From Bacilli bacterium (GTDB lineage Bacteria > Bacillota_I > Bacilli_A > RFN20 > UBA1709), in the NCBI GenBank assembly GCA_028693955.1, contig JAQUUH010000004.1, positions 1-49,039 on the forward strand: a stretch of 49,039 nucleotides of DNA. The letters run 5' to 3'. A program made the translations under genes and the position numbers. The notes beneath the pieces were generated by a model that saw only the letters and a program-made list of their open reading frames with translations, was not told the origin of the DNA and ran no database searches. Positions 2,777 to 9,032 of the stretch are shown here, one piece after another. Each line of letters begins with the position of its first letter. The stretch's first letter is position 1.

Positions 2777-3184
2777 TTAACGCTTTGAAAATTGTGGTGC
2801 ACGTCTAGCAGACTTAAGACCATATTTTTTACGTTCTTTAGCTCTTGCATCACGAGTAAGCATACCAGCTTTTTTCAATATTGCTCTATAATCTAAAGAG
2901 GCAACCAATAAAGCTCTTGCAATACCTAACCTAATTGCACCTGCTTGTCCAGTGAATCCACCACCATTAACATTTACTGAAATATTAAAATGATCTTGTG
3001 TATTAGTTAATACTAATGGTTGTTTTAAATCCATAACTAGAGTAGCAGAAGGCATATATTTTTCTACCTCTACTTCATTTACTAATATTTTACCTGTTCC
3101 TGGAGTTAAAATTACACGAGCTGTTGAACTCTTGCGTCTTCCTACTCCTCTATATTGAACAGCAACTTTTTTCTTTGCAGCCAT
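2777..3184 (-). CDS. rpsI: 30S ribosomal protein S9
   Basis: S9 belongs to the small-subunit head, and its basic C-terminal tail reaches the P-site tRNA. The 135 residues match the family throughout: [14 protein letters not shown] near the N-terminus, [20 protein letters not shown] in the middle, and a C-terminus ending RAPQFSKR with the conserved terminal KR. It lies 10 bases after rplM in the usual rplM-rpsI pair and is closed by a terminator. Confidence 0.98.
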
Positions 3185-3194
3185 TTTCTACCTC

Positions 3195-3632
3195 CTACTT
3201 AAATTCCAATACTTGTGGATTTTGAGCAGCATGTGGATGTTCTGCTCCTTCATACACAAATAATTTCTTATAAATCTTTCTACCTAATGGTCCTTTTGGC
3301 AACATTCCCCATACTGCCCTTTCAACCATTTCTATTGGATACTTTTCAATCATAGTTTTTGCACTACGAGTTCTAAGTCCTCCTAAATAGCCAGAAACAT
3401 TATAATAGTTTTTTGTACGTAACTTATTTCCTGTTAAGTTAACCTCTTTTGCGTTTATTACAATTACATAATCTCCGCAATCAACGTTTGGAGTAAAAAT
3501 CGGCTTATTTTTACCTGTTAAAACCATTGCTAGTTCACTTGCTAGACGACCAAGGTTTTTGCCTTTAGCGTCTACAACATACCACTTGTGAGTTACCTCT
3601 TGTGGTTTAATAATTGTTGTTTGTCTTTGCAT
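3195..3632 (-). CDS. rplM: 50S ribosomal protein L13
   Basis: L13 is an early-assembling large-subunit protein. I start it at the ATG encoding MQRQTTIIKPQE, 20 codons inside the track ORF, because AGGAGG lies about seven bases upstream and homologues begin here. The longer ORF would read through the leader. The product has 145 residues, with KWYVVDAKGKNLGRLAS and GMLPKGPLGR as in the family. It is co-transcribed with rpsI from a promoter just below ackA. Confidence 0.97.
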   Translation of the reverse strand: MQRQTTIIKPQEVTHKWYVVDAKGKNLGRLASELAMVLTGKNKPIFTPNVDCGDYVIVINAKEVNLTGNKLRTKNYYNVSGYLGGLRTRSAKTMIEKYPIEMVERAVWGMLPKGPLGRKIYKKLFVYEGAEHPHAAQNPQVLEFK

Positions 3633-3656
3633 ACAAATCCTCCTCACTAAATTGTA

Positions 3657-3679
3657 GCTTACCGGGGCTCCAATTAAGC
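3657..3679 (-). promoter_or_regulatory. candidate rplM leader hairpin
   Basis: The rplM 5' UTR of about 60 nt contains a hairpin with stem GCTTA / TAAGC enclosing the GC-rich segment TTGGAGCCCCGG, unusual in such AT-rich DNA. Autogenous L13 leaders are known in Firmicutes. I cannot confirm a match to that family, so the role is inferred from position. Confidence 0.35.
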
Positions 3680-3697
3680 AAAACAGTGCCATTAATT

Positions 3698-4937: not shown

Positions 4938-6491
4938 TTATAAAACTTTTTTAAATTTTATCTTTTCATCAATTTTAATCCCTAATTTTTCAGCAAAATC
5001 ATAACTTAATTTTACTGCTGGATTACTAAAATCTTTAGGATTATGAGCATCAACATTAATAACAATTTTATTCCCAACTTTTTTAGCTATTTCCCAAAAT
5101 TTATAATATGGGTATAAATAACGTTCTTCAATATTTATTCCACCATTTATTGAATAGCGTATTCCTCCTTGGTTTATCTCAAGTGGTATATCTAAAGCTT
5201 TTGCTGTTTCACATAATTTCCATGCACAATCATCACAAATTGGTGTCCATTCTTTCATTGAATTCATAAACAAATCTGGATGAGCAAAACATGAAAATAA
5301 GCCTGTTTTTAATGCCTCTAGAGCCATGACAGTGTATTCAATTACATCTTCATCTGTTTTACAATACCCAAAATATCCTGTTATGCTTTTGCCATCGTAG
5401 TAACGATAATGATTACCATATATTAGGTAATCAAGTTTCTTTGAAACTAATAAGTCATGGAGAAAGTCATATAATGGTGGAAAATATTCACATTCCATCC
5501 CGACATAAACATCAATCTCATTTTTATATTTTTCTTTTAAACTCCTTATTGACTCCACATATCCTGGAAACTCGGAAAATTTTCCTCTTGTCCAATTGTC
5601 ATTATCTACTCCTGGTACCATCATATGGTCGCTAAATCCAATAGTTTTGTAACCATTTTTTATTGCCGATAGTACATATTCTTCATCGGAACCATTAGCA
5701 TGAAGACATCTATATGTATGAGTATGATAATTATGAAGTTGTTTTTTAATACTAGACTCATAAGTCACTTCTTCCAAATATAAACCATGTGCCGGCGCTC
5801 TATATGGAATAATATCTCTTTCTTCTTTATCAAGTCTATTTGTTATAACATCATTTGTAACTCTTTCCAAGCCAATCTCTATTATCACACCAACTATATT
5901 TCTAACCATATATCTCAAAAATCCATCACCAATTACCGAAATATTTAACAATTTGTCTTTTGCTGCTATATTTATGCTCTTGATATTACGAACAAAACTT
6001 TCTGTTTCTTCTTCATCATTTGCACAAAAATTCCTGAAATCGTGACTCCCTAAAAACAGTTTTGCAGCCTCTTGCATCTTATCTATATTTAAAAATCTAC
6101 ATAATTGATAAACATAATTATTTTGTAAAGGATCATATTCGCCAGTACTAATTATATAACGATATTCTTTTTGAATAGCTGAAAATCGTGCATGAAAATT
6201 ATTATCAACCTCTTCAACTTCGCTAACATAAATATCACTAGGAAGAATACTATTTATCGCTTTTTTCCATTGAACAACCGACATCTTAATATCAGTATCA
6301 AAATGTATAACTTGTCCTCTTGAGTGAACTCTAGCATCAGTTCTACCAGAGCCGATAATATGGATATCTTTTTTATTTATTGTTGATAATGCTTTTTCTA
6401 ATTCATTTTGTATAGTACGCATATTATTTTGAATCTGAAAACCAGAAAAATTGGTTCCATCATATTTAATAACACATTTTATTCTAGCCAC
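4938..6491 (-). CDS. truA: tRNA pseudouridine synthase A fused to a PHP-family phosphoesterase
   Basis: Residues 1-244 form a complete TruA, which makes pseudouridine at tRNA positions 38-40. Catalytic Asp52 lies in GSGRTDARVHS, and the domain ends at the usual HGLYLEEVTY. A linker of about ten residues (ESSIKKQLHN) leads into a complete PHP metal-dependent phosphoesterase (about 254-517) resembling HisJ-type histidinol phosphatases. PHP ligand motifs are HTHT (256-259), FSDHM, GMECEYFPP, GNHY, AHPD and VDAH. Separate TruA is normally about 250 residues. The start is GTG after a GGGGTG site and overlaps ecfT by 13 bases. I see no stop, frameshift or internal start with a ribosome binding site at the junction. 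The PHP substrate is unknown. Confidence 0.9.
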   Translation of the reverse strand: MARIKCVIKYDGTNFSGFQIQNNMRTIQNELEKALSTINKKDIHIIGSGRTDARVHSRGQVIHFDTDIKMSVVQWKKAINSILPSDIYVSEVEEVDNNFHARFSAIQKEYRYIISTGEYDPLQNNYVYQLCRFLNIDKMQEAAKLFLGSHDFRNFCANDEEETESFVRNIKSINIAAKDKLLNISVIGDGFLRYMVRNIVGVIIEIGLERVTNDVITNRLDKEERDIIPYRAPAHGLYLEEVTYESSIKKQLHNYHTHTYRCLHANGSDEEYVLSAIKNGYKTIGFSDHMMVPGVDNDNWTRGKFSEFPGYVESIRSLKEKYKNEIDVYVGMECEYFPPLYDFLHDLLVSKKLDYLIYGNHYRYYDGKSITGYFGYCKTDEDVIEYTVMALEALKTGLFSCFAHPDLFMNSMKEWTPICDDCAWKLCETAKALDIPLEINQGGIRYSINGGINIEERYLYPYYKFWEIAKKVGNKIVINVDAHNPKDFSNPAVKLSYDFAEKLGIKIDEKIKFKKVL

Positions 6492-7312
6492 AAGAACACC
6501 CCTTTCAATAAATTGGGATTATTAATAAGAAAAATAGTTAAAACTATAACTACCGTTAAAATTATTATTGCCCATAAATCACTCCAAGTAAACTTCATTA
6601 TTCTATATCTTGTTCTTTTACCACTTGGATTATATCCTCTTGCTTCCATAGCATTTGCTAATTCTTCTGAACGTTGAAAAGAAGATATAAACAAAGGTAT
6701 TATCAAAGAAATAATTGCATTAACTTTTTCTTTTAGTTTTCCTTGTTGCAAGTCAACTCCTCTACTTGCTTGAGCCTTAACTATTTTTTCTGTTTCTTCT
6801 AATAACGTTGGAATAAATCTTAAAGCAATAGAAATAGTCATAGCTATTTCATGTGCTGGAAACTTGATTATTTTTAAAGGTGACATAAAATACTCAATTC
6901 CATATGTTAAATCCAGTGGTTTTGTTGTTGCTGTTAGTATTGTTGTAATAGAAATCATTAAAGCCAAACGAACAACAATCTGAAGTGTCTGTAAAAGTGC
7001 CCTAGTATAAATACTATAACCAAATATTGTAAAAGCCACTTCACCTGTTCTAATAAGAATTACATTGAAAAATAGCAAAAACAGCATCATAAACCACATT
7101 GGTTTTAATGATTTAAAAATTGATAAAATTTTTATTTTAGATAATTTTAACAAAAAAATTACAACTATAGCTAAAAATATATATCCTAAATAATTAACAT
7201 CTAAAAAAACACAAATTAATAGACCTAGCAAACCCAATAATTTTGTCCGCGGATCTAATCTATGAATAATCGTATCATATGGTATGTATCTACCTAAGGT
7301 GATATTTTTCAC
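6479..7312 (-). CDS. ecfT: energy-coupling factor transporter transmembrane subunit EcfT
   Basis: EcfT is the membrane scaffold joining the two ECF ATPases to interchangeable vitamin-binding S components. The product has several transmembrane helices and both coupling-helix motifs, SRGVD and ARGYN. I choose the GTG start giving MKNITLGRYIPYD rather than the TTG two codons upstream. It has GAGGTG seven bases away, matches homologues, and makes a GTGA overlap with the ecfA2 stop. It is the third gene of ecfA1-ecfA2-ecfT and is coupled to truA downstream. Confidence 0.95.
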   Translation of the reverse strand: MKNITLGRYIPYDTIIHRLDPRTKLLGLLGLLICVFLDVNYLGYIFLAIVVIFLLKLSKIKILSIFKSLKPMWFMMLFLLFFNVILIRTGEVAFTIFGYSIYTRALLQTLQIVVRLALMISITTILTATTKPLDLTYGIEYFMSPLKIIKFPAHEIAMTISIALRFIPTLLEETEKIVKAQASRGVDLQQGKLKEKVNAIISLIIPLFISSFQRSEELANAMEARGYNPSGKRTRYRIMKFTWSDLWAIIILTVVIVLTIFLINNPNLLKGVFLWLE

Positions 7313-8169
7313 TTGCAATCACCTCTACTTTTTATTATTTGTTCTACTAAACTAGAAACATCTCTTATTTTCCCATAATTTAATTTCATCCCAGAATCAA
7401 TTAATTGTTGCATAATTTTTATTACTAATGGTGCTTCAATTCCAACTCTTTCTAGTAATCTTCTATTCATAAAAATATTTATTGGTTCATCAAAAGCTTC
7501 TATGGCTCCATCTTTTAAAACAATTACCTTATCGCAATATTGAAGAACATAATCCATCTCATGAGTAACCAGTACAATTGTCTTTCCTTCTTTATTAAGT
7601 TTTTTAAACAAATCTAATGTATCTACTGCGCCTTGAGGATCAAGTCCAGCAGTTGGTTCATCTAAAACCAATATGCTAGGATTAATTGCTAATATTCCAG
7701 CTATAGCGACTCTTCTTTTTTGTCCTCCAGAAAGTTCAAAAGGAGATTTATCCAGATAATTTAAATCCAAACCTAAAAGTTTCATTAATTCTTCTACATT
7801 AGGACGAATTTCTTGTTCAGTAACTCCAAAATTTTTAGGACCAAAAGCTATATCTTTAAAAACTGTTTCTTCAAATAATTGATATTCTGGAAATTGAAAA
7901 ACTAACCCTGCTTTTTTTCTTAAATTTTTGACTCCTTTTGGTTTAGTATCAGGAGCAATTAAAAAATCATCAACCTCAATCTCTCCGCTACTTGGTAATA
8001 AAAGAGCGTTTATATGTTGAACTAGAGTAGATTTCCCAGAACCTGTATGTCCAATTATCCCAACAAATTCTCCATCTTTAATTTCAAAACTGACACCTTT
8101 AAGTGCAGTATGCTCATATGGAGATTTTGGTAAATAGGTATAAAAAACATCGTGAAATTTTATTGACAT
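7309..8169 (-). CDS. ecfA2: energy-coupling factor transporter ATPase EcfA2
   Basis: This is one of the two ABC ATPases powering ECF vitamin and cofactor uptake. The 286 residues contain Walker A GHTGSGKST (about 39-47), Q-loop QFPEYQLFEE, signature LSGGQKRRVAIAG, Walker B ILVLDEPTAGLD and switch His in VTHEMD. The EcfA2 assignment over EcfA1 rests on position (second gene) and on the PEYQLFEETV Q-loop. It overlaps ecfA1 by 10 bases and ecfT by 4. Confidence 0.95.
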   Translation of the reverse strand: MSIKFHDVFYTYLPKSPYEHTALKGVSFEIKDGEFVGIIGHTGSGKSTLVQHINALLLPSSGEIEVDDFLIAPDTKPKGVKNLRKKAGLVFQFPEYQLFEETVFKDIAFGPKNFGVTEQEIRPNVEELMKLLGLDLNYLDKSPFELSGGQKRRVAIAGILAINPSILVLDEPTAGLDPQGAVDTLDLFKKLNKEGKTIVLVTHEMDYVLQYCDKVIVLKDGAIEAFDEPINIFMNRRLLERVGIEAPLVIKIMQQLIDSGMKLNYGKIRDVSSLVEQIIKSRGDCK

Positions 8170-8972
8170 AATTTTTTCACCATCTTTTCTATATCTATAG
8201 TGTCCATTTCTATTCCATTTTTTCCTAGTAAATTTTTGAATTTATAGACAAAAGGAATATCAAGACTTAATTTTTTTAATAAATCATCTTTTATAAAAAC
8301 TTCTTCTGGTGTTCCCTGAATAGCTATTTCTCCATTGTCAACAACAATGACTTCATCTGCTAAAAGTGCTTCTTCAACATCATGGGTAATCGATAATATT
8401 GTCATATCTTTAAATAATTCTCGCATTTTCAAAATTACTTCTTTAATTTCTTTTTTACCTTTTGGATCTAACATGCTTGTTGCTTCATCAAAAATAACAA
8501 TATCTGGTGTCATTGCTAAAACACCTGCAATTGCAACTCTTTGTTTTTGACCTCCAGATAAATTAGAAGGTTCTTTGTCTAAATACTTATCCATACCTAC
8601 TTTTTGGGCATATTCATTTATAATTTGATCCATTTTATCTTGAGCAACCAAATGATTTTCAAGACCAAAGGCTATATCATCCCTAACTGTTGCTCCTATA
8701 AATTGATTATCAGGATTTTGAAATACAATTCCAATTCTATTTCTAATGTCATAAATATTTTTTTCATTTATTTCAATACCATCAACTTTAATTTGTCCTT
8801 CTTGTATTGTTAATAATCCAGTTATTAATTTTGCTAGAGTAGATTTTCCAGAACCATTGCGACCTAAAACTACACAATATTTACCCTTTTCTATATCTAA
8901 AGATAAATTATTGAAAACTTTTTCTTGTTTATCATAAGAAAATGTTAAATTTTTTATTTCAATTGCTCTCAT
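8160..8972 (-). CDS. ecfA1: energy-coupling factor transporter ATPase EcfA1
   Basis: This is the partner ABC ATPase of EcfA2. Walker A GRNGSGKST, Q-loop FQNPDNQFIGATV, signature LSGGQKQRVAIAG, Walker B IVIFDEATSMLD and switch His SITHDVEE are all intact. I start at the ATG of MRAIEIKNLTF (270 residues), preceded by GGAGAG. The track start 48 bases upstream lies inside the rplQ terminator hairpin and adds non-homologous residues. There is no promoter of its own between rplQ and this gene, so expression probably comes from readthrough of the alpha operon. Confidence 0.95.
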   Translation of the reverse strand: MRAIEIKNLTFSYDKQEKVFNNLSLDIEKGKYCVVLGRNGSGKSTLAKLITGLLTIQEGQIKVDGIEINEKNIYDIRNRIGIVFQNPDNQFIGATVRDDIAFGLENHLVAQDKMDQIINEYAQKVGMDKYLDKEPSNLSGGQKQRVAIAGVLAMTPDIVIFDEATSMLDPKGKKEIKEVILKMRELFKDMTILSITHDVEEALLADEVIVVDNGEIAIQGTPEEVFIKDDLLKKLSLDIPFVYKFKNLLGKNGIEMDTIDIEKMVKKLCQ

Positions 8973-9007
8973 TATTTCTCTCCAATCCAATAAAAACAAA
9001 ATTAAAG

Positions 9008-9032
9008 TCAAAAAGGCCACACTAGGTGGCCT
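9008..9032 (-). terminator. partial terminator after rplQ
   Basis: On the minus strand AGGCCAC and GTGGCCT form a 7-bp GC-rich stem with a 5-nt loop, followed by TTTTT then GACTTTAA. It begins 8 bases after the rplQ stop. The short T-tract and the missing ecfA1 promoter suggest incomplete termination. Confidence 0.75.

Follow-up and report, generated by a model that had tools for sequence, protein, structure and literature searches.

The closest described relatives of the two parts of the protein studied here are TruA, the tRNA pseudouridine(38–40) synthase known from the Escherichia coli structures 1dj0 and 2nqp, and the HisJ-type phosphatases of the PHP superfamily (2yxo, 3dcp/6nlr and 4gc3/4gk8/4gyf). 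The ancestral Bacilli ecf operon places truA in the ecf gene group (PMC8046335). A fusion of TruA to a PHP domain was not reported in the literature that we searched, which comprised open-licence papers. In the window, the whole 49,039-nucleotide stretch of Bacilli DNA that was analysed, truA holds the same operon place as in the ancestral operon; however, where E. coli TruA ends, the C-terminus of this protein continues straight into a PHP domain. The gene is a single 517-codon frame on the minus strand (6491→4938) that starts with GTG, contains no internal stop and is overlapped at its start by 13 bp of ecfT. The features of the locus are as follows.

4938–6491, minus strand: truA::PHP fusion of 517 codons, running from a GTG start at 6491 to the stop codon at 4938–4940; the same fusion occurs in a second genus (G002)
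5760–6491, minus strand: TruA domain, residues 1–244 (PF01416, TIGR00071 and motif alignment)
5736–5759, minus strand: junction or linker, residues 245–252, ESSIKKQL (comparison of junction DNA, alignment, low pLDDT at 246–249)
4941–5735, minus strand: HisJ-like PHP domain, residues 253–517 (PF02811, profile match to 2yxo, domain model and Foldseek)
6479–9020, minus strand: upstream operon genes ecfA1, ecfA2 and ecfT (gene order; ancestral Bacilli ecf operon, PMC8046335)
3737–4924, minus strand: putative acetate/butyrate-kinase-like gene, by sequence reading, downstream of the fusion
3195–3692, minus strand: rplM, named by sequence reading, downstream of the fusion
2777–3184, minus strand: rpsI, named by sequence reading, downstream of the fusion

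The source genome (G000) amounts to 910,527 bases at 95.43% completeness, and the fused protein is the sole TruA detected in it. A second copy of the fusion was found in another genus of the same family (G002, a metagenome assembly; contig JAQUTO010000047.1, L003/L056), where the frame is likewise free of stops and the protein is 58% identical over residues 3–516. The kinase-like gene that lies between the fusion and rplM in the window is missing in G002, and rplM there follows directly behind the fusion. The truA::PHP gene is a real, derived and lineage-limited fusion, and a new domain architecture made from two known families, the mechanism of which is probably ordinary.

The N-terminal half has the hallmarks of a complete TruA. 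In a Pfam search of the fused protein PseudoU_synth_1 (PF01416) matched with E = 1e-41, its best stretch covering residues 142–245, and the NCBIfam model TIGR00071 scored 227.9 bits over residues 3–239 against a cut-off of 142.85, which places this half in the TruA family over its full length. Catalytic Asp52 is present in GRTDARVH, as established by aligning GRTD and the core motifs across 40 proteins, and the motifs GRTD, KEYRY, HDFRNF, GDGFLRYMVR and GLYL are all intact. In whole length, catalytic Asp and core motifs this half resembles E. coli TruA. The conserved Gly of GRTDxGVH is replaced here (Arg54), and we considered whether its loss marks a dead enzyme; this was rejected, as many relatives with a separate truA vary at the same position.

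The C-terminal half belongs to the PHP superfamily (PF02811, residues 255–440, 5.5e-15, 56.5 bits against a cut-off of 26.4). All of the expected metal-ligand motifs (H256xH258, H264, D288-H289, E333, H361, H404 and D481xH483) are present, with the ligand residues conserved not only between the two fused proteins but throughout the order. A profile search with the domain matched the Thermus thermophilus HisJ structure 2yxo at 6.9e-24. A model of the domain, built from 29 PHP sequences of the order, reached a mean pLDDT of 95.7, and Foldseek placed it closest to 2yxo (4.6e-17), followed by HisK-type enzymes of Listeria and Lactococcus; profile and fold searches point to the same three proteins. 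The likeness to the HisJ-type phosphatases listed above extends to fold, metal-ligand motifs and the conserved Arg of their ‘GGIRR’ segment, and every truA-linked PHP protein of the order retains Arg445, which corresponds to the GLRR segment of HisJ. These features suggest that the PHP half is probably a metal-dependent phosphomonoesterase. The first-pass annotation had described an in-frame join of an intact TruA to an intact PHP domain, by a linker of about ten residues and in the canonical truA place after ecfT; each of these points held, the linker measuring about 8 residues and the order ecfA1-ecfA2-ecfT-truA recurring across relatives.

The same genome carries a second HisJ-like PHP protein of 284 aa (contig 22, 4280–5134, minus strand; L053), flanked by a glutamine-synthetase-like gene and a HAD-like hydrolase gene and about 33–36% identical to the fused PHP domain.

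To place the fusion among its relatives, we compared truA neighbourhoods across the order. The two genes are adjacent in 28 of 58 genomes, fused in 2 and separate in the other 26. Families f1, f2, f4, f5, f6 and f8 share the order ecfA1-ecfA2-ecfT-truA-PHP; the alignment gap separating truA from PHP ranges from a few bases to some tens, and many genomes have rplM-rpsI farther along. In one genome (G010) PHP lies about 640 bases from truA. Outside the order, two genomes of family f25 also have the two genes as neighbours: PHP overlaps the end of truA in G289, and the gene order in G416 is ecfT-truA-PHP-rplM-rpsI. The separate neighbours in related families of the order are homologous to the fused halves and lie in the same gene order, but a stop codon, a ribosome-binding site and a start codon stand between them; the position of these elements in relatives corresponds to the junction at residues 245–252. 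In about ten relatives from families f2, f4, f5 and f8 (G032, G021, G050, G040, G090, G148, G097, G042, G007 and G020) truA and PHP share a frame save for a stop at or near the junction, and an operon fusion can thus be seen here beside its unfused state, in pairs that a single stop codon splits.

The search of related genomes for TruA–PHP proteins that the first-pass annotation had proposed yielded the second fusion, and an uninterrupted frame occurs only in G000 and G002 among the 279 genomes of the order searched. No further fusion was seen in samples of 395 genomes of the class and 392 of the phylum under strict thresholds; a Fimbriimonadales match (L023) proved to be a TruA without a PHP domain. 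Relatives with consistently separate truA and PHP genes had been named in advance as something that would refute the fusion. Such separation is seen outside the family, but since G002 shares the fusion, it marks the fusion as derived rather than as an artefact. The accompanying proposal that PHP was added to the resident truA fared less well. As PHP is already a separate gene directly behind truA in 26 other genomes, the fusion is a join of two resident neighbours, and a recent addition of PHP to a bare truA is contradicted by synteny. No PHP match was obtained in about 16 of the 58 genomes, among them G003 from the same family, all of which keep TruA, so that the PHP gene is dispensable.

Trees of TruA (40 rows) and PHP (31 rows) place G000 and G002 as sisters with support of 100/97 and 100/99, respectively. 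G001 and G003, the rest of the family, pair with each other in the TruA tree, and the PHP gene was not found anywhere in G001 (66% complete) or G003. The simplest account is a single fusion event, with PHP lost in the G001/G003 sister pair. In family f2, branches are generally shorter in the PHP tree than in the TruA tree, so that the PHP gene is under constraint wherever a genome retains it. Together, these observations make it likely that a translational fusion arose once, by loss of the stop between truA and PHP, and that its product is a two-domain, two-function protein in which a TruA half is joined to an independent phosphomonoesterase. The ancestral state would have been truA and a HisJ-like PHP gene, adjacent and co-oriented in the ecf operon, and the stop codon between them would have been lost in the common ancestor of the two related genera. 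The N-terminal half would then form pseudouridine at tRNA positions 38–40, and the C-terminal half would act as an independent metal-dependent phosphomonoesterase on a short flexible linker. The link between truA and PHP would stem from shared transcription and position, not from catalysis on tRNA.

We next considered how the two halves may relate within the chain. The full-length model, for which ten of the 12 input rows were relatives read through their own stop codon, has a mean pLDDT of 88.4 and a pTM of 0.56 and consists of two well-defined domains, with pLDDT below 50 only at residues 246–249, in the linker, and at 451–458. A model with a low-confidence linker of this kind does not point to a fixed interface between the halves, and the best reading is of two independent enzymes on a single chain. 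The first-pass annotation had offered either a bifunctional protein, which is the natural reading, or a phosphatase tethered to tRNA or the ribosome, a reading for which the support does not reach beyond gene neighbourhood. In a functional form of tethering, PHP would act on RNA or nucleotides met by TruA, such as tRNA ends or breakdown products of modified nucleotides, and the fusion would deliver it to its substrate. Consistent with this, truA and PHP are conserved neighbours across several families of the order and also in two genomes from another family of the class, a PHP-fold RNase P protein is a weak fold match of the PHP model (1.4e-4), and the 59 scanned neighbours of PHP relatives outside the order include, besides the TruA of G289, SpoU methylase (3), QueG (3) and PTH2 (2). 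These RNA-modification neighbours, counted without a background, could hint at a functional link. However, truA sits in a transcription/translation operon, where RNA-related neighbours are expected by position, and the neighbours outside the order are mixed, FAD-binding oxidoreductases being the commonest (8 of 59). Moreover, the roughly 16 genomes that lack PHP keep TruA, and the nearest structures are small-molecule phosphatases. We therefore regard functional tethering as unlikely, and slightly more doubtful still the narrower proposal of a phosphoesterase directed at RNA or nucleotides, which would be a working partner of TruA and be brought to tRNA by the fusion. If that proposal were true, tRNA pseudouridylation would be tied to a phosphatase by a connection hidden in the conserved truA–PHP pair of related Bacilli, and cooperation of the halves would be the first clue that a phosphatase can act together with tRNA modification. 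SpoU RNA methylase or QueG genes adjoin the PHP relatives at L088, L096, L099, L097, L121 and L135, which lie outside the order.

Returning to the preferred reading of a single two-function chain, we asked whether a PHP-only protein might be made alongside the full-length fusion by internal initiation. In the window, two in-frame codons precede the PHP domain, TTG 239 and GTG 242, as such a second product would need, but neither seems, to judge by the sequence, to have a well-placed ribosome-binding site; the GGAAGAA ahead of GTG 242 leaves too little spacing to serve well as one. In G002, where the HxH motif begins at codon 255, there is not a single in-frame ATG, GTG or TTG between codons 206 and 289, and because none lies in frame near the junction, a PHP-only product is impossible there from standard starts. 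The production of two proteins from this gene is thus improbable.

The single two-function chain leaves the substrate of its phosphatase half to be considered, and here a role as histidinol phosphatase of the HisJ family is the obvious candidate. The top NCBIfam matches of the PHP half are PRK07328 and TIGR01856 HisJ, and its closest solved structure is T. thermophilus HisJ. However, neither curated cut-off was reached: PRK07328 scored 107.3 with the whole protein and 109.2 with the domain alone against 202, and TIGR01856 fell just short, with 87.2 and 89.4, respectively, against 90.2. The PHP half further differs from HisJ phosphatases in its fusion to TruA, in the lack of markers of the histidine pathway, and in Arg261 (HTHTxRC), which is invariant in the truA-linked PHP proteins of the order and present in 29 of 55 relatives outside it, whereas T. 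thermophilus HisJ has Leu at this position, as does the contig-22 paralogue. Profile searches of this genome, at 95% completeness, found neither hisD (PF00815) nor hisA/hisF (PF00977), while control genomes gave matches. Likewise, hisD was not found in 57 of the 58 genomes of the order searched, and the one genome with a match, G053, is a 5%-contaminated assembly. The failure to find these genes makes histidinol phosphate an unlikely natural substrate, and with the scores under their cut-offs we rejected the histidinol phosphatase role as highly improbable. The PHP half probably acts on some other small phosphomonoester. The truA–PHP pair and its fusion thus flag a HisJ-like phosphatase, so far uncharacterised, and because it persists in genomes where histidine synthesis is not recognisable, an annotation as histidinol phosphatase is likely wrong.

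Finally, the idea that an assembly or sequencing error deleted a stop codon can be dismissed: the genome is a draft in 47 contigs and truA and PHP are separate in relatives outside the family, but a second genus carries the join too, again free of stops and in a protein 58% identical, which rules out such an error and effectively excludes a chance frame or a missed base.

Two groups of relatives showed further variation around these genes. In two f2 genomes, G029 and G035 (L037 and L039), a PLD/cardiolipin-synthase-like gene lies behind PHP and continues its frame past a single stop codon; these had been taken as candidate fusions (frame lengths 745 and 744) and were rejected since the stop separates the two genes. 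Similar genes also lie behind PHP in several other f2 genomes. In family f5, the TruA proteins (L046, L047, L066 and L067) have SR(L/V)D instead of GRTD and group apart on long branches in the TruA tree, and the PHP neighbours of their genes are near 40% identical to the fused PHP domain.
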